Origin: Desulfobacteraceae bacterium
GTDB taxonomy: Bacteria > Desulfobacterota > Desulfobacteria > Desulfobacterales > Desulfosalsimonadaceae
Direction of reading: 5' to 3'
Assembly: GCA_003599885.1 (NCBI GenBank)
Contig: QZKW01000035.1
Location: 1-64,000, forward strand
Length of the DNA: 64,000 bases
The position numbers and the translations under genes are program-made. The notes under the pieces are model-generated. The model had not been told where the DNA came from and made no database searches. It saw only the letters and a program-made list of their open reading frames with translations. Below, piece after piece: positions 40,910 through 53,468 of the stretch (its first letter is position 1; each line of letters begins with the position of its first letter).

Positions 40910-43900
40910 CGGTTCATCCCCGCGTGTGCGGGGAACATCATTGATTTTTTGGGCATTCACATGGATCAGACGGTTCATCCCCGCGTGTGCGGGGAACATC
41001 TGTCTGTGGGATCAATGGCAACCGGCGTAAACGGTTCATCCCCGCGTGTGCGGGGAACATTTCCGTGATGGAGACATCGGATTTCCCCGTGCCGGTTCAT
41101 CCCCGCGTGTGCGGGGAACATTATCAGGACGGCATTGCGGCGGAACTGAACACCGGTTCATCCCCGCGTGTGCGGGGAACATTCCTGCCAGTCGCTGGGC
41201 GCACCGTCGAACGCCGGTTCATCCCCGCGTGTGCGGGGAACATGCGTGTTCATAGTCAAAATGCAGGTCATTGCCCGGTTCATCCCCGCGTGTGCGGGGA
41301 ACATGATATTTTTCGGATTGTTCCGGTGCCGGAAATCGGTTCATCCCCGCGTGTGCGGGGAACATTTTCCCGTATCGAAATAAAATTGGGTCTGAAACGG
41401 TTCATCCCCGCGTGTGCGGGGAACATGTTTTAAGTAATTAAGCACTTACCCCTTAAATCGGTTCATCCCCGCGTGTGCGGGGAACATGTTTTAAGTTTTA
41501 AGGGTTAAGGGTTAAGCGCCGGTTCATCCCCGCGTGTGCGGGGAACATGCATGTGTCTCCGGTGCGCCTGGCGGTGATCACGGTTCATCCCCGCGTGTGC
41601 GGGGAACATACACCCAGGGTCAGACCCTTCCACCCGATGACCGGTTCATCCCCGCGTGTGCGGGGAACATTAACCGCAAGTGGAGTGGACTCATTTATCC
41701 TGCGGTTCATCCCCGCGTGTGCGGGGAACATATCTATTTTTGTGCCCAAACCATCTACGGAATCGGTTCATCCCCGCGTGTGCGGGGAACATGACATGGT
41801 GGGCCGTGCAATGACCACAAGTGACGGTTCATCCCCGCGTGTGCGGGGAACATAAAAAACCAAGTTTGTAAACAGCCATTAAACGCGGTTCATCCCCGCG
41901 TGTGCGGGGAACATAAGCGTTTGACCCTTCATGTGAAGCCAAAGACCGGTTCATCCCCGCGTGTGCGGGGAACATCCGTCCATTGACTTTATGCTCTCCC
42001 TCGTGGGCGGTTCATCCCCGCGTGTGCGGGGAACATGAATCAAGCCGCGATGATGCGTATAATCTGAGCGGTTCATCCCCGCGTGTGCGGGGAACATGCG
42101 CTGGATTCCCACACGTTCAGCAAGTTCCGCGGTTCATCCCCGCGTGTGCGGGGAACATGCCGGATCATCCGCTGCACCATGGGCGGGATGCGGTTCATCC
42201 CCGCGTGTGCGGGGAACATCGTTTACATGGGATATTCCGGAAGCAATGCGGCGGTTCATCCCCGCGTGTGCGGGGAACATCGTTCATGTCTTCCATTTTC
42301 CCATACCTCCCTCGGTTCATCCCCGCGTGTGCGGGGAACATAACGTCCAGCGTCCGTCGTGGTCCCGTGGTTGCGGTTCATCCCCGCGTGTGCGGGGAAC
42401 ATGACGGCACGGAAGAATGGCCGCATGACTCAGACGGTTCATCCCCGCGTGTGCGGGGAACATTATCGCCATAAGTTAATACCCATGCAAGCCGACGGTT
42501 CATCCCCGCGTGTGCGGGGAACATTTCATGAGGGGGCCTCATGCGGGGCGCACTCCCGGTTCATCCCCGCGTGTGCGGGGAACATTCTAAGTCGGTGAGA
42601 AAACCGCTTGTTTAAACCGGTTCATCCCCGCGTGTGCGGGGAACATTTAAGATTGATTGTTTTTTGTTGTCTTGTTGTCGGTTCATCCCCGCGTGTGCGG
42701 GGAACATATCCTGCTACGCTTTATGCAGTCGTGAGCGCCCGGTTCATCCCCGCGTGTGCGGGGAACATAATCAGGGAGCGTGACCAATGACTAATGAAGA
42801 CGGTTCATCCCCGCGTGTGCGGGGAACATATATACAAAAAACGCCAGCGGCATGTGTCTGACGGTTCATCCCCGCGTGTGCGGGGAACATGGTTTCACCC
42901 GGACCGCCACATTAAACCCCAGCGGTTCATCCCCGCGTGTGCGGGGAACATTGAAAGTATTCTTTCCCGGTTACCTTTTTTAACGGTTCATCCCCGCGTG
43001 TGCGGGGAACATTAACTATCAATTGCCACAAAATAGCACCAAATCGGTTCATCCCCGCGTGTGCGGGGAACATAACTATGATATATTTTTTAAATGGATT
43101 CTTAACGGTTCATCCCCGCGTGTGCGGGGAACATAATGCAACGATAGCGGCATCGTATCTGAGCGCCGGTTCATCCCCGCGTGTGCGGGGAACATTTTTG
43201 GTGATGAGCCTGACCGTGACGGCCTCTCGGTTCATCCCCGCGTGTGCGGGGAACATGTGGCGTTGTTTTTGAGCAGATCAAACCCGGTCGGTTCATCCCC
43301 GCGTGTGCGGGGAACATTCCCGGTTTCCATTCGGTTGCTGTTTTATAGTCCGGTTCATCCCCGCGTGTGCGGGGAACATATTATCTTCCATATCCGGCAC
43401 TCCGTCGCCATCGGTTCATCCCCGCGTGTGCGGGGAACATATCTATTTTTGTGCCCAAACCATCAACGGAATCGGTTCATCCCCGCGTGTGCGGGGAACA
43501 TGGTTCCGTGATGTCCTCGCCGGGGTTCGCCGTCGGTTCATCCCCGCGTGTGCGGGGAACATATTGGCCACATCGCCAGCGCCCACCGGGTAGACGGTTC
43601 ATCCCCGCGTGTGCGGGGAACATTCCCCGGATTCCAGGATAATGCGTTCCTGTGTCGGTTCATCCCCGCGTGTGCGGGGAACATCGATTGTTGACCCAGT
43701 TGGCCCGCCAGATGTACGGTTCATCCCCGCGTGTGCGGGGAACATCTCCCTCACCCTCTTTTTGTGATCTATGCGATCGGTTCATCCCCGCGTGTGCGGG
43801 GAACATATCCGCAGCCAGGGCCGCGGACCATTCGCAGGCGGTTCATCCCCGCGTGTGCGGGGAACATGGTTCGGCATTAGATTCTGTGGATGGTGCGAAC

Positions 43901-43989
43901 GGTTCATCCCCGCGTGTGCGGGGAACATGTGCTTCTGGTGGGCAGGGAAGAAATCTCCGACGGTTCATCCCCGCGTGTGCGGGGAACAT
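40910..43989 (-). CRISPR. type I-E CRISPR array, 51 repeats and 50 spacers
   Basis: Repeats of 29 nt (plus strand CGGTTCATCCCC then GCGTGTGCGGGGAACAT) start at 40910 and recur every 61 bases to 43961. They are identical in sequence as read here. Spacers are 32 nt except one of 33 nt (43318-43350). The repeat matches the E. coli type I-E class when read on the minus strand (ATGTTCCCC ... GGGGATGAACCG, so the crRNA 5' handle is AUGAACCG). The array is therefore transcribed leftward, with its leader at the high-coordinate end next to cas2. Spacers 9 and 37 from the leader (43441-43472, 41732-41763) differ by one base. The perfect leader-distal repeats suggest little decay. Confidence 0.97.
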
Positions 43990-44021: not shown

Positions 44022-45260
<1,239 letters not shown>

Positions 45261-45264
<4 letters not shown>

Positions 45265-46106
45265 GGCAGCTCCTTATGGGCGGATTTGCCTTTCAGCCGT
45301 TTTTTGCTTTCCGGTTCGGCCAGATAGTTTTCCGGGGAGACCACCTTTGCGCCGGTTTCGATTTCCAGCTTTTCGCGGGCGTCCCCCGCGATCTTTCCCC
45401 CTTTCCGGGCAGCAATCCGGTTTTCCGCAAACCCTTCGGCGTCCTGTTTCCGGGCGATTTCCGTGGTGGCCGCTTCGCCGAGCATGGAAAAAATGAGTTC
45501 CAGATCGGTCATGTGGTCCCGAAGGTTTTCCCGCTCCAATTTCTTGAACTGCTTATATTCTCCGGGCGTCATGCCGAACGCCGCCTTGGTGATCTCCGAT
45601 GTCAGGATGGCGTATTCGGGCTCACCATTCACGCCCCGGTTCTTCCATTCGTCGGTCAGCTCGGCCCGGACGGCGATGCCCCGCATCCGTTTTTCAATCC
45701 AGGCGTCTGAATATCCCTTGGCCTTGTAAATGGCGCGGGTGCGTTTTGAGGCCAGCTCCGGATCTTCGATTTCCTGAACCCGCTCGTAGCCGACTTTCGC
45801 CAGCCAGCGCTTGAACGGCTCGGCCTTGGGTGATGGAATGGACTGGATAATGCGGAAAAGGCCTTCGGTGTTGGCGCAATTGATTTTTTGTTTTCCGCCA
45901 GGCGTATCAATGGAAAGGGGGGTGGCAATTTGCCCCCACCCTTTGGCCAGCTCCTTGTCCCTGCGGCGCATATCCTTTATATATCCGGAGGGATCAACGG
46001 AATCCGTCAGCGCGGCAACAACGTCGGTGATGGCAAACCACCATTCATTGTTGTGCAGGGTTCGCCTGATTTGTTTGCTTTTAAAAACAACTAGTTGAGT
46101 ATCCAT
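45261..46106 (-). CDS. Bro-N domain (phage antirepressor-like) protein inside the cas operon
   Basis: A 281-residue protein. Residues ~1-105 form a Bro-N domain: VVFKSKQIRRTLHNNEWWFAI, TDVVAALTDSVDPSGYIKDMRRRD, then INCANTEGLFRIIQSIPSPKAEPFKRWLAKVG, the usual Bro-N end. The remainder is helical and charged (RTRAIYKAKGYSDAWIEKRMRG, TSEITKAAFGMTPGEYKQFKKL, ARKQDAEGFAENRIAARKGGKIAGDARE) and resembles the C-terminal part of stand-alone chromosomal Bro-N/DinD-like proteins. It sits between cas5e and cas1, 34 bases after cas5e and overlapping cas1 by 4. It is not a recognised I-E component. It may regulate the operon, or be a passenger/defence accessory. Confidence 0.85.
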
Positions 46107-46140: not shown

Positions 46141-46821
46141 TCAAAGATTTTCGACTCCCGGGATCGTCCGGACCCTTCTGGGTGAGAACAGACGCCGGTC
46201 CGTGGCAAATGACACAGGCATATCCGGGAGGGAATCGCGCCCATCGGAAAAATTTTGGACTTCCATCTGACGAGTGAAAGAATCCAGCGTTTTTTCGCCA
46301 ATGAGAAGACGCAGCGCATCGTCTTTATTTTCTTTTAAAGCGGCCAGCACCGGGGCTGTGGGGATACAGGTTTTCCGGCCCAGCCAGAGACCCCATTTCG
46401 GATCACTCAGCGCTGTGGCGATTGCATCCAGGAAAGCCGGATCTCCTTCAAGGATTACGCCGAAAGCAGCGTCGGTCAGGTATTGTCGGTGCGTAATGTG
46501 GCAATCTTTGTTTTTACCATCGGCTTTTTTGGTATTTTGTATCGTGTGATAATCCTGCAACCGGCAAACCGACAATACTTTTCCCCTTTTATTTTGTCTG
46601 GGTATGGCGATTGCAGTCATCCCTACAGATCCAAATGCCGACAGGAATTTGCTTTCATCCCCGCTTCCTCGCTGAAGACCGAGGGCGGCACAACACATCC
46701 CGGCAATGGCGCTTTTGGTGGGCATGAGGCCGGTATTGCGGCGGTTGTATTGGCTGTCAAACCCCCAGGATTGCATCGGGCCTTCCAGACGAAGGGCCAG
46801 AAAATGGGTATCAGATGACAT
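46141..46821 (-). CDS. cas5e: Cascade subunit Cas5e
   Basis: A 226-residue Cas5 of type I-E: LALRLEGPMQSWGFDSQYNRRNTGLMPTKSAIAGMCCAALG is the canonical RAMP N-terminus with Gly-rich loop (residues ~7-47). QYLTDAAFGVILEGDP and PKWGLWLGRKTCIPTAPV follow, both typical of Cas5e. It binds the crRNA 5' handle in the Cascade complex. I chose ATG 46821 because it gives this standard start; it overlaps the end of cas7e by 11 bases. The C-terminus (RRLFSPRRVRTIPGVENL) is also typical. Confidence 0.92.
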   Translation of the reverse strand: MSSDTHFLALRLEGPMQSWGFDSQYNRRNTGLMPTKSAIAGMCCAALGLQRGSGDESKFLSAFGSVGMTAIAIPRQNKRGKVLSVCRLQDYHTIQNTKKADGKNKDCHITHRQYLTDAAFGVILEGDPAFLDAIATALSDPKWGLWLGRKTCIPTAPVLAALKENKDDALRLLIGEKTLDSFTRQMEVQNFSDGRDSLPDMPVSFATDRRLFSPRRVRTIPGVENL

Positions 46822-48085
46822 AGTCCACCATCCCATCAAGCAGTTCCGAAAAAGAACAGGTCTCAATCGATCCAAGATCTTTTTTTATCTGTTCTTTCAA
46901 GCTGTTCTTGACGACTGCTTTTGCAAATACAGAATCGACCCCCCATGTATTTTGAATATCGGCAAATTCGGTATTCATTCGATTTATCGATTCAACGGCA
47001 AAGCCGCTTATTGAAGGTCGAACCGGCGCTTCGAATGCATTAACCAGTTGAATCGGATGTCCTTTTTCCCGAATAACTCCCATCATATAAATTGGAAGCG
47101 TGTTGCCGTTCATGGAATTTTTTCGGGCGGTGGGAATGGCTTTAACAGTGGCTTCCACAAACGTCCGCACCACGCTCTGCCGCTCTTCTCTGGTCATTGC
47201 GCCCAAATGGTCTTTGTCGGCAAGCATGTCCAGATTAAGGGCCGCAAACCGGTAATAATTGGCTGAATTGAATTCCAGGGTGCCGGTCATGCCCGCGCCG
47301 GACTCATCTTTAGGTTGCAGGTCATCCACCGCAGAAAAGAAATCAATTTCGTTGTCCGCCTTGTGGGTCGAAAGCGCATGGGAAAACATGGAGGAAGCCT
47401 CTACAGTCAGGGAGTGGTCGTTTGCCACCATGCGGCCAAAAAGGGCAATGTCGGCGGCATCCTTGGGTAGGCTTTTTGTTTCTTTTTTTTCCCCCTTAAA
47501 TGCTTTTTCTACAGGTGTTTTAAGGATTTTAGCCACAAGTTTTCCAAACTGCTTGGCGGTTAGCTTCTTTTCACCTTTTTTCGCTTTTTCCGGTTCTTCC
47601 CCCTCTACATCTTCATCATTATCTTCATCTTTTGCCAATTTCTCTTTATCAACTGAAGAAATCGCATCCACTAATTTTTGTTTATCTTCCTCTTTTAGCG
47701 AGAAAAGAACATCGGCGAATATTTTATATTCCATAGGTGAAAGAAAAACGAGCGTCTTAACTTTGCCTTCCTGTTTCGGATCAAGCTTCGCAAGATAGTG
47801 ACCGGCACATAGAGACAATGCATTCGCTGTAACTTCTGATTCTCCGAGTGTTATTAAAGACGAAAATATTTTTTCAACAAACAGACGACTTCGCTTGCCT
47901 TTGAAATGGCCTGAATTATCAAGTTCTTTACCGGCCATCTCCCGAATCGCACGTTTCCATGACTGGCTGGATACCCGCGCCCGCTGTACACCGCCAAAAA
48001 TAGCGGTTTTGGGAGAATTGAGGTCGTCACGGTTCAGGCAGGCAACAGGTACGGATTGAATAATGTGCAGTTCCAAATGCTTCAT
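46811..48085 (-). CDS. cas7e: Cascade backbone subunit Cas7e with acidic insertion
   Basis: A 424-residue Cas7 of type I-E (E. coli CasC is about 363). The N-terminus MKHLELHIIQSVPVACLNRDDLNSPKTAIFGGVQRARVSSQSWKRA and the segments DIALFGRMVANDHSLTVEA, FSAVDDLQPKDESGAGMTG, ALNLDMLADKDHLG and VRPSISGFAVES identify the family. Residues ~145-207 (47465-47653) hold an extra Lys/Glu/Asp-rich stretch (LAKDEDNDEDVEGEEPEKAKK) that ordinary Cas7e lacks and that accounts for the extra length. It forms the crRNA-binding filament of Cascade. The start ATG 48085 has AAGGAG upstream; longer readings enter a non-coding stretch. Confidence 0.93.
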   Translation of the reverse strand: MKHLELHIIQSVPVACLNRDDLNSPKTAIFGGVQRARVSSQSWKRAIREMAGKELDNSGHFKGKRSRLFVEKIFSSLITLGESEVTANALSLCAGHYLAKLDPKQEGKVKTLVFLSPMEYKIFADVLFSLKEEDKQKLVDAISSVDKEKLAKDEDNDEDVEGEEPEKAKKGEKKLTAKQFGKLVAKILKTPVEKAFKGEKKETKSLPKDAADIALFGRMVANDHSLTVEASSMFSHALSTHKADNEIDFFSAVDDLQPKDESGAGMTGTLEFNSANYYRFAALNLDMLADKDHLGAMTREERQSVVRTFVEATVKAIPTARKNSMNGNTLPIYMMGVIREKGHPIQLVNAFEAPVRPSISGFAVESINRMNTEFADIQNTWGVDSVFAKAVVKNSLKEQIKKDLGSIETCSFSELLDGMVDYVI

Positions 48086-48119: not shown

Positions 48120-48806
48120 TTAAGGATTGAGGGGGGCAAGGAGCAGCAGGCCGAAGCCAAAACCCTTAGCGCTGCCGATGCCGGACTGATAGGTTTTTAT
48201 AAAATTTTCCGGGTCGGTCACTTCCAGGGTTCCACGGAATTGAACCCCGCCGTGATAACCGTACTGTCCTTTTTTGCGAAAATGGCTTTCAACCATCGGG
48301 CTAATTTCAAGGGGCATTTCTTCCAAAATTCGAAATCCGCCGGGTATATTCAGACCGGTGTCTTTATCCCGGCATCGCACTTCACCTTTGCGGATAAGCC
48401 AGGCACGCAGTTCGTCATGTTTTACCAGAGGAACGCGCTTGCCATGCTTTCGTTTTGCATTCGGGTGGATTAAGGTTTCGCCATTGGGTCCACGCTGCAC
48501 AATGGTTTTTACGGGGTTGGCCTTCAAGTCAAAGGCATAAAAGCGATGGGAGAGAAACGAGGGCGCGATTTCCTTGAGCGCAAATCCTTCCGGGGGACAC
48601 CATACGGGGTGCTGCGGTTTTCTCCCGGCAAGCATCCAGATTCGGAACGCGCCTTCAAGAGGATCGATTCGCGTCAGGAAATCCCGTTTGGCATCCGGCG
48701 CATCAGGGTAACACTCCCACAGTCTTTTGTGCCAGGCGTAGTTGTCAAAAATATCGTGAGTTCGGGCGGTTTGGGCATCCACTTCGAAACGGGCAAGCCA
48801 GCTCAT
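48120..48806 (-). CDS. cas6e: crRNA-processing endoribonuclease Cas6e
   Basis: A 228-residue Cas6 of type I-E. It has two RAMP-like halves: residues ~1-110 (ARFEVDAQTARTHDIFDNYAWHKRLWECYPD with the probable catalytic His; RFYAFDLKANPVKTI) and ~130-226, ending in the Gly-rich RNA-binding loop SGIGSAKGFGFGLLLLAPL. It cuts the repeat hairpin and stays bound to the crRNA 3' end. The start overlaps the cse2 stop by 4 bases. In E. coli this gene follows cas5e; here it comes before cas7e. Confidence 0.92.
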   Translation of the reverse strand: MSWLARFEVDAQTARTHDIFDNYAWHKRLWECYPDAPDAKRDFLTRIDPLEGAFRIWMLAGRKPQHPVWCPPEGFALKEIAPSFLSHRFYAFDLKANPVKTIVQRGPNGETLIHPNAKRKHGKRVPLVKHDELRAWLIRKGEVRCRDKDTGLNIPGGFRILEEMPLEISPMVESHFRKKGQYGYHGGVQFRGTLEVTDPENFIKTYQSGIGSAKGFGFGLLLLAPLNP

Positions 48807-49294
48807 ATTGCCTCCTCTGTGTCAGGCGATGCCCCAGGCGACCAGAAGGCGGCGGCCCAATCGGTTTTGGTTCGGTCATTCCAGAACCTCAGATCGGTTT
48901 CCAGTTTTTCATAATTCACCGGGATTCCCTGGGTTTTAGCCATAAATACCATCCGCAGAATCCGGCCTTGCATCTCTTCTCCAGGTTCCGCAGATAGTAA
49001 ATGCTGAAACCTCCGTTCAGTTGGTGTCAATTTGGCTTCATCCGTTCGTTGATTATCCCTTCGCTGCTCAATGTTTTTGCAGGTCGTCCCGAAATTTCCA
49101 GTGGATGTTTCCTCGGGATGGGTGGCGAAAAGACCCGCGACAAAGGCCGAAACATCATTGTTGATTGCCACCCCCAGCCGGTTTAATACCGGCCAGGCGC
49201 GGTGTTTTTTGTTGTCAACAAGCACACACCGGAGATTAGCCATCATCCCTCGGTTCTCTTTGTGTTTGCGGAGTCTTTCAAAAAGCCAGCTCAT
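48803..49294 (-). CDS. cse2: Cascade small subunit Cse2 (Cas11e)
   Basis: A 163-residue helical protein with the Cse2 landmarks NRGMMANLRCVLVDNKKHRAWPVLNRLG at the N-terminus, then SFG-type FATHPEETSTGNFGTTCKNI and RRFQHLLSAEPGEEMQGRILRMVFMAKTQGIPVNYEKLETDLRFW. Two copies form the belly of Cascade and stabilise the R-loop. It overlaps cas8e and cas6e by 4 bases each, so the three are translationally coupled. Confidence 0.9.
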   Translation of the reverse strand: MSWLFERLRKHKENRGMMANLRCVLVDNKKHRAWPVLNRLGVAINNDVSAFVAGLFATHPEETSTGNFGTTCKNIEQRRDNQRTDEAKLTPTERRFQHLLSAEPGEEMQGRILRMVFMAKTQGIPVNYEKLETDLRFWNDRTKTDWAAAFWSPGASPDTEEAI

Positions 49295-50913
49295 AACTCC
49301 TCCTCTCTGGTTTCATTGGTATTTGATTCCGGCTCATCTTTTTTGGCCGTTAATTTTTGCCACCCTTTTGCAAAGGCCCGCATCTGCCGGGGCGTTTCCT
49401 GTCCGCAGGCAATGCGGTAAGCGTCGCAGGCTGAGGCAAACAGCCTCTTCCGCCATGCGTCACGGGACGGTACGGAGGCAGCGGTGTCGAGAGCTTCGAT
49501 ATGGGTCCACAAAAGGGGGAGATTTTTTTCGACCGAGGTCCAGTATGAAAGAAACGCCATCTGTGCCAACCTGTCTTTTAGAGAGTTTTGTTCTTTCGCT
49601 TGGGTTCTTTTGACACGAGAAATCCAATCCTTGTCAATTGTTGAGCGATAAACTTCTATCGCCCAACGAAGTTTTCTGGAATAATTTTCAGCCATCAAGA
49701 CTTCAGCCTGATAGAAGGGCAAGTTGTTTTGAAAAGCAGGGGTTATATGAAATACGGATTCGAGTGCAATATCCATAGATGCCTGGTCGCGGGTTATTGC
49801 GCACACATGAAAATCAAACTCTGTATCGTAAGGCACATTTGCCATGGCCAATGGACCACCAAGGCCATCCGCTGAACGTTTTACAAGCAGCGCGGATAAC
49901 TCTCGCCAAAGCGCTTTTGAAGGCTCCACCTTGACAATCCTGCGCTCGGTGGTTTCCACACCTTTTTTATCTTTCTTTTTGAGCAACCGAACCGCCGCCG
50001 TCGGTTCCGAGGCAAATCCATCCTTGTAAGTGTCATATTTGAATCCGTTGCAACAGTACATCTGATCAGATGAATCAATCAAACGAATCCAGCGGGATAT
50101 CGGAACCAATCTCCCAATATATGTCTTGGTCGCGTTAATTGCTCTGTCAGATTCCTTCTCCGGTGATTCAGGGAAAAACTCCCAGGCAGGCTGCCCCAAA
50201 TTGATATCTGAATAAAAATCCCCTTTCTTTTTATCGACTGTAAGGGTTCTGTATGTCCTCCCAATTGTTTCGAATGTCGGCAAATTCAAATGAATTGTTT
50301 CTGCTAAAGATTTCCCTCGAAACAGGCAGTGAGCCATGGATTGAGACAAACAAGGAGCATCTGGATTACCGACTTGAGAAGTTTTTACGGACTTCCATTG
50401 CGCGACGGGTGATCCTCCCCCGGAAGAAAAATTTTGAAAAGTCAGTAAATTTAATACCATTCGTTCAGATGCGATTCGGCGACAACTCATTTGGCCGCCA
50501 TGGTCGTTAAGGGTTGAGTTATTACCGGTTGCCAGTTCGAAATCAAGAAGGGCCACAGGTGAAGTTTTTCCAGAGACATCTTCTTCTTTTTCAACACCTT
50601 TCAATCCCGCCACCTGCAACCACGGCTTTTCCTTGTGAAACAGCTCAAAGGAATCTTTCCATTCCGTAAGATATTTCCGCACAGACTCAGGCAGACGTTT
50701 CGGCGCTTCCAACCATTCGTCATAATCCTTTGGTCCATTGAGCGCCGCATGTGCGACACAGAGAAAGAGCCGCACCAAGGAAACCCGTTCGTGCGGACGG
50801 ACGGCCAGATCAGCGAAATTTTTCCCTTCAGTGAATACCGTCAGCAGGCTTGCCAGTTTTCGTTCACCCGTGGCCGTTACCAACGGAATCCACGGGTCAA
50901 AGGCCACATTCAT
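49291..50913 (-). CDS. cas8e: Cascade large subunit Cas8e (Cse1)
   Basis: A 540-residue type I-E large subunit. The N-terminus NVAFDPWIPLVTATGERKLASLLTVFTEG and RLFLCVAHAALNGPKDYDEW are the family opening. Further features are FELFHKEKPWLQVAGLKGV and FSSGGGSPVAQWKSVKTSQVG, which correspond to the region that contacts PAM and Cas3 in E. coli Cse1. The C-terminal helical bundle follows (HIEALDTAASVPSRDAWRKRLFASACDAYRIACG). It recognises the PAM and recruits Cas3. The gene starts 11 bases after cas3 ends. Confidence 0.93.
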   Translation of the reverse strand: MNVAFDPWIPLVTATGERKLASLLTVFTEGKNFADLAVRPHERVSLVRLFLCVAHAALNGPKDYDEWLEAPKRLPESVRKYLTEWKDSFELFHKEKPWLQVAGLKGVEKEEDVSGKTSPVALLDFELATGNNSTLNDHGGQMSCRRIASERMVLNLLTFQNFSSGGGSPVAQWKSVKTSQVGNPDAPCLSQSMAHCLFRGKSLAETIHLNLPTFETIGRTYRTLTVDKKKGDFYSDINLGQPAWEFFPESPEKESDRAINATKTYIGRLVPISRWIRLIDSSDQMYCCNGFKYDTYKDGFASEPTAAVRLLKKKDKKGVETTERRIVKVEPSKALWRELSALLVKRSADGLGGPLAMANVPYDTEFDFHVCAITRDQASMDIALESVFHITPAFQNNLPFYQAEVLMAENYSRKLRWAIEVYRSTIDKDWISRVKRTQAKEQNSLKDRLAQMAFLSYWTSVEKNLPLLWTHIEALDTAASVPSRDAWRKRLFASACDAYRIACGQETPRQMRAFAKGWQKLTAKKDEPESNTNETREEEL

Positions 50914-50924
50914 ATTCCCTCCTT

Positions 50925-53468
50925 TCAGGATGATTTCTTGGTAACGAGTCCCAGCTCGTCCGAATAAATAAGCCGGATTCCATCTTTTAATCCTTTCACG
51001 TTTACGGTTCCGGTTCCGTTTTCTGAAACCGTTCCGGCAGTTTGGCCTCCGTAAAGATAATCGGAAAAAGCAGGCAACGGCGAAACATGATCAAAATAAC
51101 GACTCGGAACCCTAACTATGTTCTTGTGGATTGCCTGAGCGAAGGCAAGCCGATACCGCTCTTCACTATGCTGACCGATTGAACCGTCAATAAATACAAC
51201 CCGATTTTTGGTGATTTCCTTACAGAGAACCAGGGCAATTGTCGGGATCTCATTCAGACGGGTTTGAACGCCTTCTTCATCCGGCAAAGGTATGTTCCAG
51301 ACATTGCTGCTCATGAGCGCCTTTTGGCGATGGGCCATCGCTTGGCCCAAGCAATCATCTGAAAGATTGCTCCACGATTCCGGTTCATTGTCCGGTACTT
51401 GATAGGTCTCGTTAATAAGTATTCGAATATGTTCCGGAATTAAGATTGATTTGTGTGCTTGCCAGACATCCAGAGACCGCAAAAGCACGTAGGGAGCATA
51501 AACAAAGGCTTTGCTTCCAAGCGCTTTTTTTATTTCCTCTGGTTCCATTTTCCGGAATTCATCAAGGCTTTTTTCTTCCTCGATGATGCATATTTTTGCA
51601 TTATCTGCCGGTCGTGTGCCACGTTCATGACGCCAGAGCCTGCCGATCCGTTGCAGAAGCATGTCGGTGGGGGCCAGTTCAGAGATCAACAAGTCGGCGT
51701 CCAGATCCACGCTCTGCTCAACCACCTGAGTAGAGACAAGTATTGATCCGCATCGGGTGTTACCGCTTTTTCCGAACCGTCCCATCCATTCCGTTTCCAG
51801 GGTTTCGCGCCGCCAAAAGGGGAACCGTGAATGGAGTAGACCGATGGGAAAAATTTCCTGAACCTGTTCCTGAAGTATTTGATATTGCTTTTGAGCGGAA
51901 TCCACCGTGTTACAAATCCAGAGCACGGCCCCACCTTTTTGGGCAAGCGCAACCGCCTCGCGACAGGCATTTTCCTTGTTGATGAAATCAACGATAACGG
52001 TTCTTGGTTCTGGAGGTATTGCCGCTACCGGCAAAATGGAGTTCTCTTCCTTGCGCCCGGTTATAAGCGGATAAGGAAGCGCAGCCTCATTTTCTCCGTC
52101 TTCCGGAGAAGAAACAATCTGTCCTCGCCGTTTTCCCGTAAGGGTAGCCGACAGAACAATCACCGTGCAGCCAAGCCCCTCTAAGGTTGTAATCAGGTTG
52201 TCAATCAGTGTACCCGTGTAAAGATCATAAGAATGAACCTCATCAAGGATCACCACCTTCCCGGCAAGGGCGAAGTGGCGGACAAAAAAATGTTTGGCCG
52301 CCACAACGCCGAGCAGTGCCTGGTCAACCGTGCCGACGCCAAACGGAGCAATAAGTGACCGTTTTGACGAGGAGAACCAATTCTGACCGGATCGGGCGTC
52401 TTCAGATGGCGGGCCTTGCTTCAAGGTGGCCGTTGGGCAAATTCCGGAATTTGAATCCATGAGCCATGAATTTCCATGGATCAGGCGGCTCGCCGGTGAT
52501 TCCGGAGCGATACGCCGCAAAAATTCATTCATGCGCAGATGAATCCGGTTGCTGGTGGCCTGGGTGGGAAGCGCGAAATAAATGCCGGTTGCTTTTCCGG
52601 ATGTCATCAGTTGATAGGCCGCTCCGAGCGCAGCCTCGGTCTTTCCCATGCCCATCGGCGCTTCGATCACATAGACACCGGGGCCAGTGATAGCAGCAAT
52701 TGCTTTTGTCTGCATGTTATTGGGCGGAAAATCAAAGAGGGATTCAAATGAAAGGTCTTTATTCAACTCCGGCGGGAGAAAACCGATTTCATCAAGGGCC
52801 TTGCGTGCAATGGCGGCAGGATCAATGTCGGAGGGCGTCTGCTCGGGCGAGAAAAATCGCTCATCTGAACCGATCCAGTCTGAAACACTGACAAGTCCGG
52901 CAAGCCACCAGAGGGCAGGGGAATATTCAACGAGTTCAAAAGGGGTATCTCCCGGCGCAAAATAATCCCATACCAGTCTTGCATTCGCCATTCGTTCGGC
53001 GTCCCACTCAATATGGCTGTGGGCTTCGGAAATTCCGCCCCGAGGATGGTAGCCCTTATCATTGGGAGCCGTTAGCCGGCCATGATGCGCACCAAGCAAG
53101 CATGAAACAAACTTGGCGGTTTTTCGACTGATGCCTGCTTCAATAAGAAAAGGCATAATCGCTGCATGGGATACTTTGCCGTGGTCTGATTCCATCCCGG
53201 TGTCCCAGCAGCCATTCCGGGCGATTTTTACCAGGTCATTTTCTTCGAGCCAAGCTTCACATTTTCGCTGAAATCCCGGAGATATTTTTCCGAGATCATG
53301 GAGCGCTGCCAAAACACCCAGTTGCGATGACGCCAGGTTGAACCGCCGAACCAGTCCCGACAGCCCTTCCGCAATGGCGCTGGCCACACAGCCGACATTC
53401 ACCATGTGATCCTGGACGGAAATACCAGGATGCCCGCCTGAATCAGTTTTTGCCCAAAAGTGCACCAT
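50925..53468 (-). CDS. cas3: CRISPR-associated helicase/nuclease Cas3
   Basis: An 847-residue protein. The N-terminal HD nuclease (~1-230) has HMVNVG, ALHDLGKISPGFQRK, CLLGAHHGR. The DExD/H helicase (~255-700) has the Walker A APMGMGKTEAALGAAYQL, motif Ia LPTQATSNRIH, motif II VILDEVHSYDLYTG, motif III LSATLTGKRRG, and motif VI LLQRIGRLWRHER. A C-terminal domain completes it. It unwinds and degrades DNA bound by Cascade. ATG 53468 gives the family N-terminus MVHFWAKTD; a TTG at 53495 could add nine residues. Neither has a strong ribosome-binding site. It is the first cas gene of the operon. Confidence 0.95.
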   Translation of the reverse strand: MVHFWAKTDSGGHPGISVQDHMVNVGCVASAIAEGLSGLVRRFNLASSQLGVLAALHDLGKISPGFQRKCEAWLEENDLVKIARNGCWDTGMESDHGKVSHAAIMPFLIEAGISRKTAKFVSCLLGAHHGRLTAPNDKGYHPRGGISEAHSHIEWDAERMANARLVWDYFAPGDTPFELVEYSPALWWLAGLVSVSDWIGSDERFFSPEQTPSDIDPAAIARKALDEIGFLPPELNKDLSFESLFDFPPNNMQTKAIAAITGPGVYVIEAPMGMGKTEAALGAAYQLMTSGKATGIYFALPTQATSNRIHLRMNEFLRRIAPESPASRLIHGNSWLMDSNSGICPTATLKQGPPSEDARSGQNWFSSSKRSLIAPFGVGTVDQALLGVVAAKHFFVRHFALAGKVVILDEVHSYDLYTGTLIDNLITTLEGLGCTVIVLSATLTGKRRGQIVSSPEDGENEAALPYPLITGRKEENSILPVAAIPPEPRTVIVDFINKENACREAVALAQKGGAVLWICNTVDSAQKQYQILQEQVQEIFPIGLLHSRFPFWRRETLETEWMGRFGKSGNTRCGSILVSTQVVEQSVDLDADLLISELAPTDMLLQRIGRLWRHERGTRPADNAKICIIEEEKSLDEFRKMEPEEIKKALGSKAFVYAPYVLLRSLDVWQAHKSILIPEHIRILINETYQVPDNEPESWSNLSDDCLGQAMAHRQKALMSSNVWNIPLPDEEGVQTRLNEIPTIALVLCKEITKNRVVFIDGSIGQHSEERYRLAFAQAIHKNIVRVPSRYFDHVSPLPAFSDYLYGGQTAGTVSENGTGTVNVKGLKDGIRLIYSDELGLVTKKSS

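Follow-up and report, generated by a model that had tools for sequence, protein, structure and literature searches.

In the window, by which we mean the whole stretch of 64,000 nucleotides analysed here, a type I-E CRISPR-Cas operon that is standard in its NCBIfam matches lies on the minus strand in the order cas3-cse1-cse2-cas6e-cas7e-cas5e-[Bro-N]-cas1e-cas2e. Its cas genes, all on that strand, are cas3 (50925-53465; TIGR01587 and Pfam Cas3_HD), cse1 (49291-50913; TIGR02547), cse2 (48803-49294; TIGR02548), cas6e (48120-48806; TIGR01907), cas7e (46811-48085; TIGR01869), cas5e, the last effector gene (46141-46821; TIGR01868), cas1e (44341-45264; TIGR03638, 378 bits) and cas2e (44022-44417; TIGR01873). 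A CRISPR array at 40910-43989 holds 51 matches to a 29-bp repeat with 0 mismatches, and these identical repeats suggest an array that is recently or actively acquiring. The gene of interest occupies the gap between cas5e and cas1e (45261-46106, minus strand): an intact ORF of 281 codons, assigned to the Bro-N / PDC-S13 family by its translation, by Pfam PF02498 and by the PADLOC profile PDC-S13, which begins 34 bp after the cas5e stop and is the only Bro-N copy in the window's genome. The stop codon TGA of the Bro-N gene and the start ATG of cas1e overlap in the sequence ATGA (45261-45264), and the Bro-N gene contains a Shine-Dalgarno-like site for cas1e, AAGGAG (45270-45275, minus strand). 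An earlier, sequence-only reading had described an intact 281-residue Bro-N protein encoded between cas5e and cas1 and sharing ATGA with the latter, and this arrangement is borne out by the ORF, by Pfam and by the sequence of the junction.

The same reading took the ATGA coupling as an argument against a passive insertion, but overlaps of this kind are not confined to cas operons. Among the best 80 of at least 576 relatives in the genome_contigs collection, 11 overlap the next gene by 4 nt, and in 8 of these 11 no cas gene was found in the locus; furthermore, unrelated genes that use the same gap in other genomes overlap cas1 by ATGA as well (RhuM-Fic in L132, DUF1016 and Fic genes elsewhere), and so does, by 4 nt, the Bro-N gene of the I-C-like locus L060. 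The coupling thus proves little, since relatives without cas neighbours have it too, and we rejected it as proof of function. A promoter and terminator scan of 3 kb gave no promoter-like or terminator-like site on the Bro-N strand at either junction; over its whole length it returned 3 promoter-like sites, against a chance mean of 2.3 (sd 1.4), and 7 terminator-like sites, against 3.9 (sd 1.9).

When the protein itself is considered, the single Pfam match is Bro-N PF02498 over residues 13-104 (E 3.6e-14; 53.6 bits against a cut-off of 25.6), which together with the elements of the structure model delimits a predicted DNA-binding domain (45795-46070, minus strand). Comparison of the family places within it a block-exchanged, putative recognition segment, residues 36-78 (45873-46001, minus strand), and the remainder is dominated by a helical C-terminal domain, residues 115-260 (45327-45764, minus strand), with a DdrC-like predicted fold and a possible distant relation to DinD. 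The PADLOC profile PDC-S13 covers nearly everything, from residue 3 to 273 against profile positions 5-278 of 286 (381 bits). PDC-S13 we take to be a phage-defence candidate label of PADLOC-DB; the match here is full-length, and the PADLOC entry is a candidate label only. The name was not found in any of the papers listed by a literature search, and the main text of PMC9252829 does not contain 'PDC'. The suggestion of the sequence-only reading that the protein may respond to phage repressor or antirepressor signals is not indicated by these boundaries, as antirepressor PHROGs cover only residues ~1-118, about the first 120, and the whole fold matches DdrC instead; the full-length PHROG match, phrog_15286, has no assigned function. 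Phage Bro-N antirepressors (Ant) have the N-terminal domain in common with the protein described here, but they differ in their C-terminal half, and the present gene stands in a chromosomal cas context and has few viral copies.

An AlphaFold2 model was built from 72 family sequences (two of the 73 eligible proteins were dropped from the structure alignment) and reached a mean pLDDT of 88.5; in the Bro-N domain it has strands at residues 15-18, 21-25, 62-68 and 71-78 and helices at residues 26-34, 39-49, 51-60 and 80-88. Compared with the PDB by Foldseek, the model retrieved six chains at E <= 0.001, all of them DdrC of Deinococcus radiodurans (best E 4.5e-7), and the next unrelated match had an E of 0.55. 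VIA-align gave DdrC a Z of 12.9 over 215 residues at 13-16% identity, with 6.6 for the best unrelated row, although the program warns that a Z below ~13 may be due to chance in helical proteins. The rmsd is 10-15 Å when both domains are superposed together and 3.9 Å when only the N-terminal domain is taken (Z 7.7, 93 residues), so both halves match whilst their relative placement differs from that in DdrC. At the sequence level, neither a profile search (E up to 1) nor a single-sequence search (E up to 10) of the PDB matched the DdrC chains, and no meaningful solved relative was found by sequence. The predicted structure matches DdrC over both domains, and a shared fold of this kind shows no function by itself. 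According to the part of PMC5436757 available to us, DdrC is a Deinococcus-specific, damage-induced protein that binds single- and double-stranded DNA without sequence specificity, shields it from nucleases, condenses it, circularises linear DNA and anneals strands. The fold over both domains is what DdrC and the Bro-N protein have in common, whereas an exchangeable segment, which the Bro-N family possesses, is not mentioned for DdrC in that part of the paper.

The C-terminal half shows another, weaker connection. The PDC-S13 profile hits DinD orthologs that are 46-69% identical to E. coli DinD, at positions ~117-277 and with E down to 5e-16. When an alignment of seven DinD proteins was compared with the family by hhalign, 126 columns were aligned at E 1.4e-4, with a probability of only 53% and with the N-terminal part left unaligned; before the seven-protein alignment was used, E. 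coli DinD alone had given probabilities of 0.5 and 6.7%. No NCBIfam family, DinD included, matched the Bro-N protein at E <= 0.001. These comparisons are consistent with a distant and weak relation to DinD that would be confined to the C-terminal half, the N-terminal parts not being aligned by hhalign. DinD is counted among the regulators that act on the RecA filament in the portion of PMC4457935 that was accessible. In E. coli K-12, dinD stands between yicC and yicG and outside any defence operon, whereas the Bro-N gene of the window belongs to a cas operon.

The occupation of the gap before cas1e is recurrent. Of 389 genomes of the class that were searched with the Cas1 of the window, 27, counting the window's own, have a close cas1e, and Bro-N lies 5' of cas1e in 13 of these 27 loci, again counting the window's own. 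Ten of these genes are near full-length (the window's, L160, L165, L167, L034, L170, L172, L173, L175 and L179) and three are damaged (L162, L033 and L169). Five further loci contain only another portable gene (DUF1016 in L164, L174 and L176, Fic in L178, and a Fic remnant of 75 residues in L163), one has an inverted PIN-type pair, recognised by eye (L035), and in eight nothing was recognised (L161, L150, L166, L168, L171, L177, L180 and L181). Since 10 of the 27 loci have neither Bro-N nor an intact gene of the other families (the eight empty ones, that with the PIN pair and that with the Fic remnant), cas1e works without Bro-N. In a scan of the phylum, cas1e was found in 34 of 395 genomes, at 35 places, and 30 loci were read: Bro-N is present in 5 (the window's own, L142, L143, L144 and L146), a Bro-N remnant of 51 residues in L133, another portable gene in 5 (RhuM-Fic L132, four-helix IVP L136, dnstrm_HI1420 L137, Fic L138 and DUF1016 L147), and no such gene in 19. 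Pooling the scans of class and phylum, which have 2 genomes in common, Bro-N is found in 17 of 55 genomes, plus 1 remnant. The damaged copies in L162, L033, L169 and L133 point to turnover of the gene. A further cas1e survey around a Marinifilum genome covered 19 genomes and found a match in 1.

These counts bear on one of the alternatives, namely that the gene is an antirepressor of a prophage that happened to insert into a single genome. Bro-N as such is common in phages, as matches in BFVD confirm, but kin of this particular protein are rare there: at least 9 loci turned up when 2.9 million viral contigs were scanned with two patterns, and 5 of 50,697 phage records contain kin at E 1e-5. 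Among plasmids, 10 of 72,556 records have a relative, all below 60% identity. Given that the gene recurs in 13 of 27 class loci, that viral copies are few and that antirepressor families match its N-terminal part only, chance insertion of this kind was ruled out, and we consider it extremely improbable; a prophage origin was likewise rejected in view of the slot between cas5e and cas1e, the lack of a prophage context and the scarcity of viral kin. The view of the sequence-only reading that the gene is no passive insertion beside the operon is in agreement with the filling of the same slot across the class, and the situation that it had named as evidence for the contrary, a gene absent from related I-E operons and closest to prophage genes, is not what was found.

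The gap before cas1e is not reserved for Bro-N, as genes of the Fic, RhuM-Fic, DUF1016 and four-helix families use it in other genomes; examples are RhuM-Fic at L132:515-1504, DUF1016/YhcG at L147:449-1498, Fic at L138:410-1498 and the four-helix IVP at L136:958-1455. A second accessory site of I-E operons lies 5' of cas3 and receives some of the same families (L185, L190, L203, L206, L208, L210 and L222), among them DUF1016, four-helix IVP and RhuM. Forty operons were fetched, a first batch of 20 chosen mostly for an occupied slot and a further 20 drawn from the rest of the list; with the window, L051, L083 and L096 there were 44, and once L216 (no operon) and L191 (no effector genes) had been set aside, 42 operons remained. 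They contain 48 ORFs of the named accessory families that were sought, a split gene counting twice: 36 in the gap that separates the last effector gene from cas1 and 12 5' of the operon, a ratio biased by the choice of the first batch for slot occupancy. None of the 48 lies inside the effector block, a zero that does not depend on that choice, none lies after cas1, and all 48 are on the cas strand. Bro-N accompanies both effector orders, cas6-cas7-cas5 and cas7-cas5-cas6. Where the slot contains two families, Bro-N comes first in 7 of 8 cases (L189, L190, L191, L192, L193, L194 and L197), the exception being L185, in which a Fic ORF stands before it.

Because unrelated portable genes occupy the same sites, a second alternative has to be taken seriously, namely that Bro-N is a very mobile single gene that survives at the starts of operons and in the gaps between modules, wherever an insertion in the direction of transcription is tolerated, and confers no defence benefit. 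The common occurrence of remnants fits this possibility, and so does the distribution of the family outside cas loci. Relatives at 58-79% identity come from various phyla of bacteria and archaea, and most of them have no cas neighbours. In loci without cas genes the neighbour is on the same strand in 45 of 63 cases upstream and 49 of 64 downstream. In L086, L078, L072 and L124 the Bro-N gene sits between two large co-directional ORFs with gaps of less than 20 nt or overlaps. Neighbours outside I-E were scanned for 70 upstream and 72 downstream ORFs of 154 (four I-E loci, as well as L095 and L109 with their very long upstream ORFs, were dropped), and the 25 commonest families by Pfam and PADLOC include type III methyltransferases (3/70 upstream, 3/72 downstream) and Cas7c (3/70 upstream), with Cas4, Cas1, RhuM and DUF1016 also among those listed; many one-off metabolic genes adjoin the gene too. 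In a family scan, 49 of 297 genomes had a match, a count that takes in fragments and DinD-type matches, and of a control set of 14 genomes only E. coli did, presumably through DinD. The Bro-N family thus lives in defence operons and elsewhere, and a defence locus is not required, since in 66 of the 80 nearest relatives (the best 80 of at least 576), some on short contigs, the available stretch has no cas gene, and many copies stand beside metabolic genes.

The dependence of cas linkage on identity to the window's protein speaks against a mere passenger. The search of genome_contigs gave at least 576 relatives; for the best 80 that were kept, cas genes were found in 4/4 loci at >=75% identity, 2/11 at 70-75%, 3/24 at 65-70%, 5/37 at 60-65% and 0/4 below 60%. 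For 29 copies from the phylum, whose flanks were extended separately and from which the I-E slot copies L012, L018 and L021 had been left out, the corresponding fractions are 5/5, 2/2, 1/2, 1/3 and 0/17. Taken together, the two samples have cas loci in 9 of 9 cases (4 + 5) at >=75% identity and in 0 of 21 below 60%, these more distant copies (L245, L247, L248 and others) showing no cas gene in the available stretches; the nine close relatives belong to two subtypes and take several positions, and L018 and L021, also at >=75%, are further I-E slot copies. Fisher tests give p 0.0006 for the genome_contigs set (>=75% against the rest) and p 2e-5 for the phylum set (>=60% against the rest), values to be read as guides, since related genomes are not independent and both sets may share genomes. 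The detection profiles were grown from I-E and I-C proteins and may miss other subtypes; the cas assignment of L087 and L262 depends on a single match to a cas3-type helicase, so that these may be no cas loci, and L025, adjoined only by a 31-residue Cas4 fragment, was scored as having no cas.

Beyond I-E, the gene is found in loci that we call I-C-like from the PADLOC names of its neighbours (Cas4c and Cas1c in L052) and from likeness to them. There it stands between cas4 and cas1 (L052, L060 and L241), between cas7 and cas4 (L053, L116, L122 and L243), or in the latter gap with RhuM or Fic between Bro-N and cas4 (L068 and L066), and it is also found 5' of cas3 (L239, L240 and L058), as it is in the I-E operons L190 and L203. 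Linkage to cas genes therefore extends beyond close strains, to both I-E and I-C-like loci and to phyla other than the window's (Marinifilum L083, Ignavibacteria L116).

Selection and inheritance provide further indications that the gene is more than a passenger. Among the 25 closest pairs, dN/dS is 0.03-0.23, rough values given that several dS exceed 1, and this purifying selection indicates that the gene is kept as a protein. In 16 operons with Bro-N in the slot, its distance, computed with the exchanged segment left out, correlates with that of Cas1 (Mantel r 0.43, p 0.0005), as compared with r 0.08-0.17 (p 0.06-0.21) for cse1, cas7, cas5 and cas6, and the mean identity is 0.77 for Bro-N, 0.76 for Cas1 and 0.25-0.38 for the four effector proteins. 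The agreement is not uniform: relative to the window, L184-L194 have 77-81% identity in Bro-N and 67-71% in Cas1, and L196 and L197 have 71% and 81-83%, respectively. The co-inheritance of Bro-N and Cas1 is thus partial, and relatedness of the hosts may contribute to it. A clade of Bro-N proteins specific to cas1e loci, which the sequence-only reading had suggested looking for, did not emerge. A tree of all columns requires 9 changes of the I-E label, of which well-supported branches force at least 6, and 7 of the I-C label (at least 6 forced); in a tree without the exchanged segment, 7 changes are required for I-E, at least 2 of them forced, and 7 for I-C, at least 4 of them forced. Both are quick trees in which L004, L019, L020, L023, L024 and L058 carried the label 'other' though later found in cas loci. 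The segment-free tree places the window in a set of 16 (SH-aLRT 99) with 10 I-E, 3 I-C and 3 then-unassigned rows, of which L020 and L023 proved to lie in cas loci and L025 to have no cas, and sampling has enriched this set for I-E, since 7 of its 10 I-E rows came from cas1 searches and one is the window itself. With I-C copies interleaved and 7-9 changes needed for the I-E label, a single I-E-specific clade is not supported.

A third explanation would make Bro-N a dedicated adaptation factor, which takes hold of the DNA ends or nicks that Cas3 or nucleases of the host have made and passes them to Cas1-Cas2, much as Cas4 aids adaptation in I-C systems. Bro-N is found either directly before cas1e or beside cas4 and cas1, in I-E and I-C-like loci alike; the cas1 Shine-Dalgarno-like site within its gene, its closer co-inheritance with Cas1 than with the effectors, the DdrC-like predicted fold and the suggested activity of the window's array point the same way. 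However, the family is not confined to adaptation genes, being found 5' of cas3 in the five loci already named and beside restriction-modification and metabolic genes, and many cas1e loci do without it. Hence, of the inference in the sequence-only reading that the position points to adaptation, the location before cas1 stands, but the other locations weigh against a general rule: a specific role in adaptation is possible, and Bro-N as a dedicated factor seems to us rather unlikely.

Variation within the family is concentrated in one part of the Bro-N domain. For 100 sequences (six distant ones of 106 were dropped), distances in 40-residue windows outside residues 31-80 correlate with those in the rest of the protein (r 0.30-0.50), and hardly any correlation is seen inside (r 0.15 for 31-70, r 0.18 for 41-80). 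L172 and L175, from one genus and in the same slot, are 96% identical in protein sequence outside the segment and 46% inside, and their nucleotide identity is 33% over codons 41-60 and 87-100% beyond codon 70. The corresponding values outside and inside are 91% and 34% for L021 and L012, and 92% and 44% for L051 (I-E) and L052 (I-C-like); in L004 and L096 (94 and 98%) the segment does not differ. At the cut used there are 15 segment types, five of which hold 82 of the 100 sequences. Identity of the body is 0.697 within types and 0.698 between them, so body and segment are unlinked, and 23 of the 37 pairs with a body identity >= 0.88 differ in type. From these sequence comparisons, residues ~36-78 of the putative DNA-binding half, which in the AlphaFold2 model form two helices and a beta hairpin of the Bro-N fold, are swapped as a block between otherwise near-identical proteins, a pattern that would be expected if specificity, and not the fold, were under diversifying pressure. 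That the ligand of the segment is DNA is suggested by the Bro-N and DdrC folds, and an exchangeable recognition segment would fit sequence-specific binding better than the non-specific binding of DdrC, a point against an action modelled on DdrC. Type I specificity subunits, HsdS, exchange target-recognition domains in a comparable way, a recognition part being swapped as a block with the rest unchanged, but what is exchanged here is a segment of ~43 residues from a Bro-N domain, and the protein family is a different one.

A recognition segment would also suit a local transcription regulator, the Bro-N half binding near the operon at a site set by the segment and controlling either cas1-cas2 or the whole operon. 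The Bro-N domain itself, the antirepressor PHROGs over residues ~1-118 and positions 5' of the operon and of the adaptation genes are in line with such a role. Nevertheless, the ATGA overlap leaves no gap for a promoter on the 3' side, no promoter-like site was seen at the junctions, and the segment types are not tied to the kind of system, type 2 being found in I-E (L160) and I-C-like loci (L052 and L060); tracking of the CRISPR subtype by the segment was rejected on this ground. We regard regulation as quite unlikely.

The reading that we prefer, with a probability of about 0.4, is that the Bro-N gene is portable and encodes an accessory protein that binds DNA and serves defence loci of the DNA-cutting kind, mainly I-E and I-C, by acting on cut DNA. 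The passenger explanation comes after it as possible rather than probable, and all these readings overlap in part. Comparison of sequences and models speaks for recurrent linkage, a shared strand, a preferred placement, purifying selection, a predicted fold and an exchangeable segment. With its gene placed at boundaries of the operon, ahead of cas3 or of the adaptation genes, the proposed accessory would be made together with the operon's proteins; the helical C-terminal half would dimerise as in DdrC, the Bro-N half would bind DNA, and its recognition part would be chosen by swapping among a few alternatives. By analogy with DdrC and DinD, its substrate may be DNA cut or nicked by the defence system, and one role would suit both the CRISPR and the restriction-modification neighbourhoods: as with DinD, cut invader DNA could be kept from RecA and recombination repair, or, as with DdrC, cut ends could be held and, beside cas1, might feed Cas1-Cas2. 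The most specific version, a DdrC/DinD-like CRISPR helper with an exchangeable cassette that captures or shields cut DNA, blocks RecA-dependent repair and feeds Cas1-Cas2, we deem unlikely as a whole. If it were true, exchange of the cassette would retarget the helper and add a second, protein-coded layer of specificity to adaptation or to the handling of cut DNA.

Our literature search, which covered the main texts of open-access journal papers, found neither a Bro-N/DdrC-fold family with block exchange as an I-E/I-C accessory nor a Bro-N gene in a type I-E operon with cas1, or in any CRISPR-Cas operon. The closest known kinds are two. In the accessible text of PMC10910872, unexpected genes, such as those for RNaseH, DNA polymerases and others, are described beside CRISPR adaptation modules, and Bro-N, RhuM and DUF1016 are absent from its main text; in that of PMC3710099, portable RhuM and Fic genes within restriction-modification operons are proposed to be toxins, and its main text is without Bro-N, cas1 and DUF1016; RhuM-Fic and Fic fill the same slot here. 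PMC8263062 mentions a phage gene with Bro-N and KilAC that lies divergently next to a phage nuclease or a CRISPR-Cas locus; judged by its C-terminal domain, its product is another type of protein. The comparisons suggest that Bro-N may be a helper of bacterial immunity that has been overlooked. For the open questions of how prespacers are selected and what prevents phages from mending their cut genomes, a DdrC-fold gene recurring at the boundary of interference and adaptation in two CRISPR subtypes is a concrete candidate, and nature supplies loci with and without the gene as well as pairs differing mainly in the recognition segment. If it is a passenger instead, the slot shows where cas operons tolerate new genes, four families also using the site 5' of cas3, and this bears on every claim about accessory genes of CRISPR systems that argues from 'guilt by association'.

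Some loci show additional changes around cas1e. In L034, a 163-residue ORF without a Pfam match (L034:998-1489) lies between a shortened DUF1016 frame and cas1e and overlaps cas1 by 4 nt. The cas1e at L036:1468-2109 breaks off after about residue 202, its last residues being repeat-like, and DUF1016 stands directly upstream. Finally, in L006:1278-1484 (the same locus as L091:10836-11042 and L246), cas1e is truncated as well, here after codon ~66, and continues into residues resembling a translated repeat, which by eye looks like a deletion that would have fused cas1 to the array; the Bro-N gene upstream of this cut cas1e is intact.
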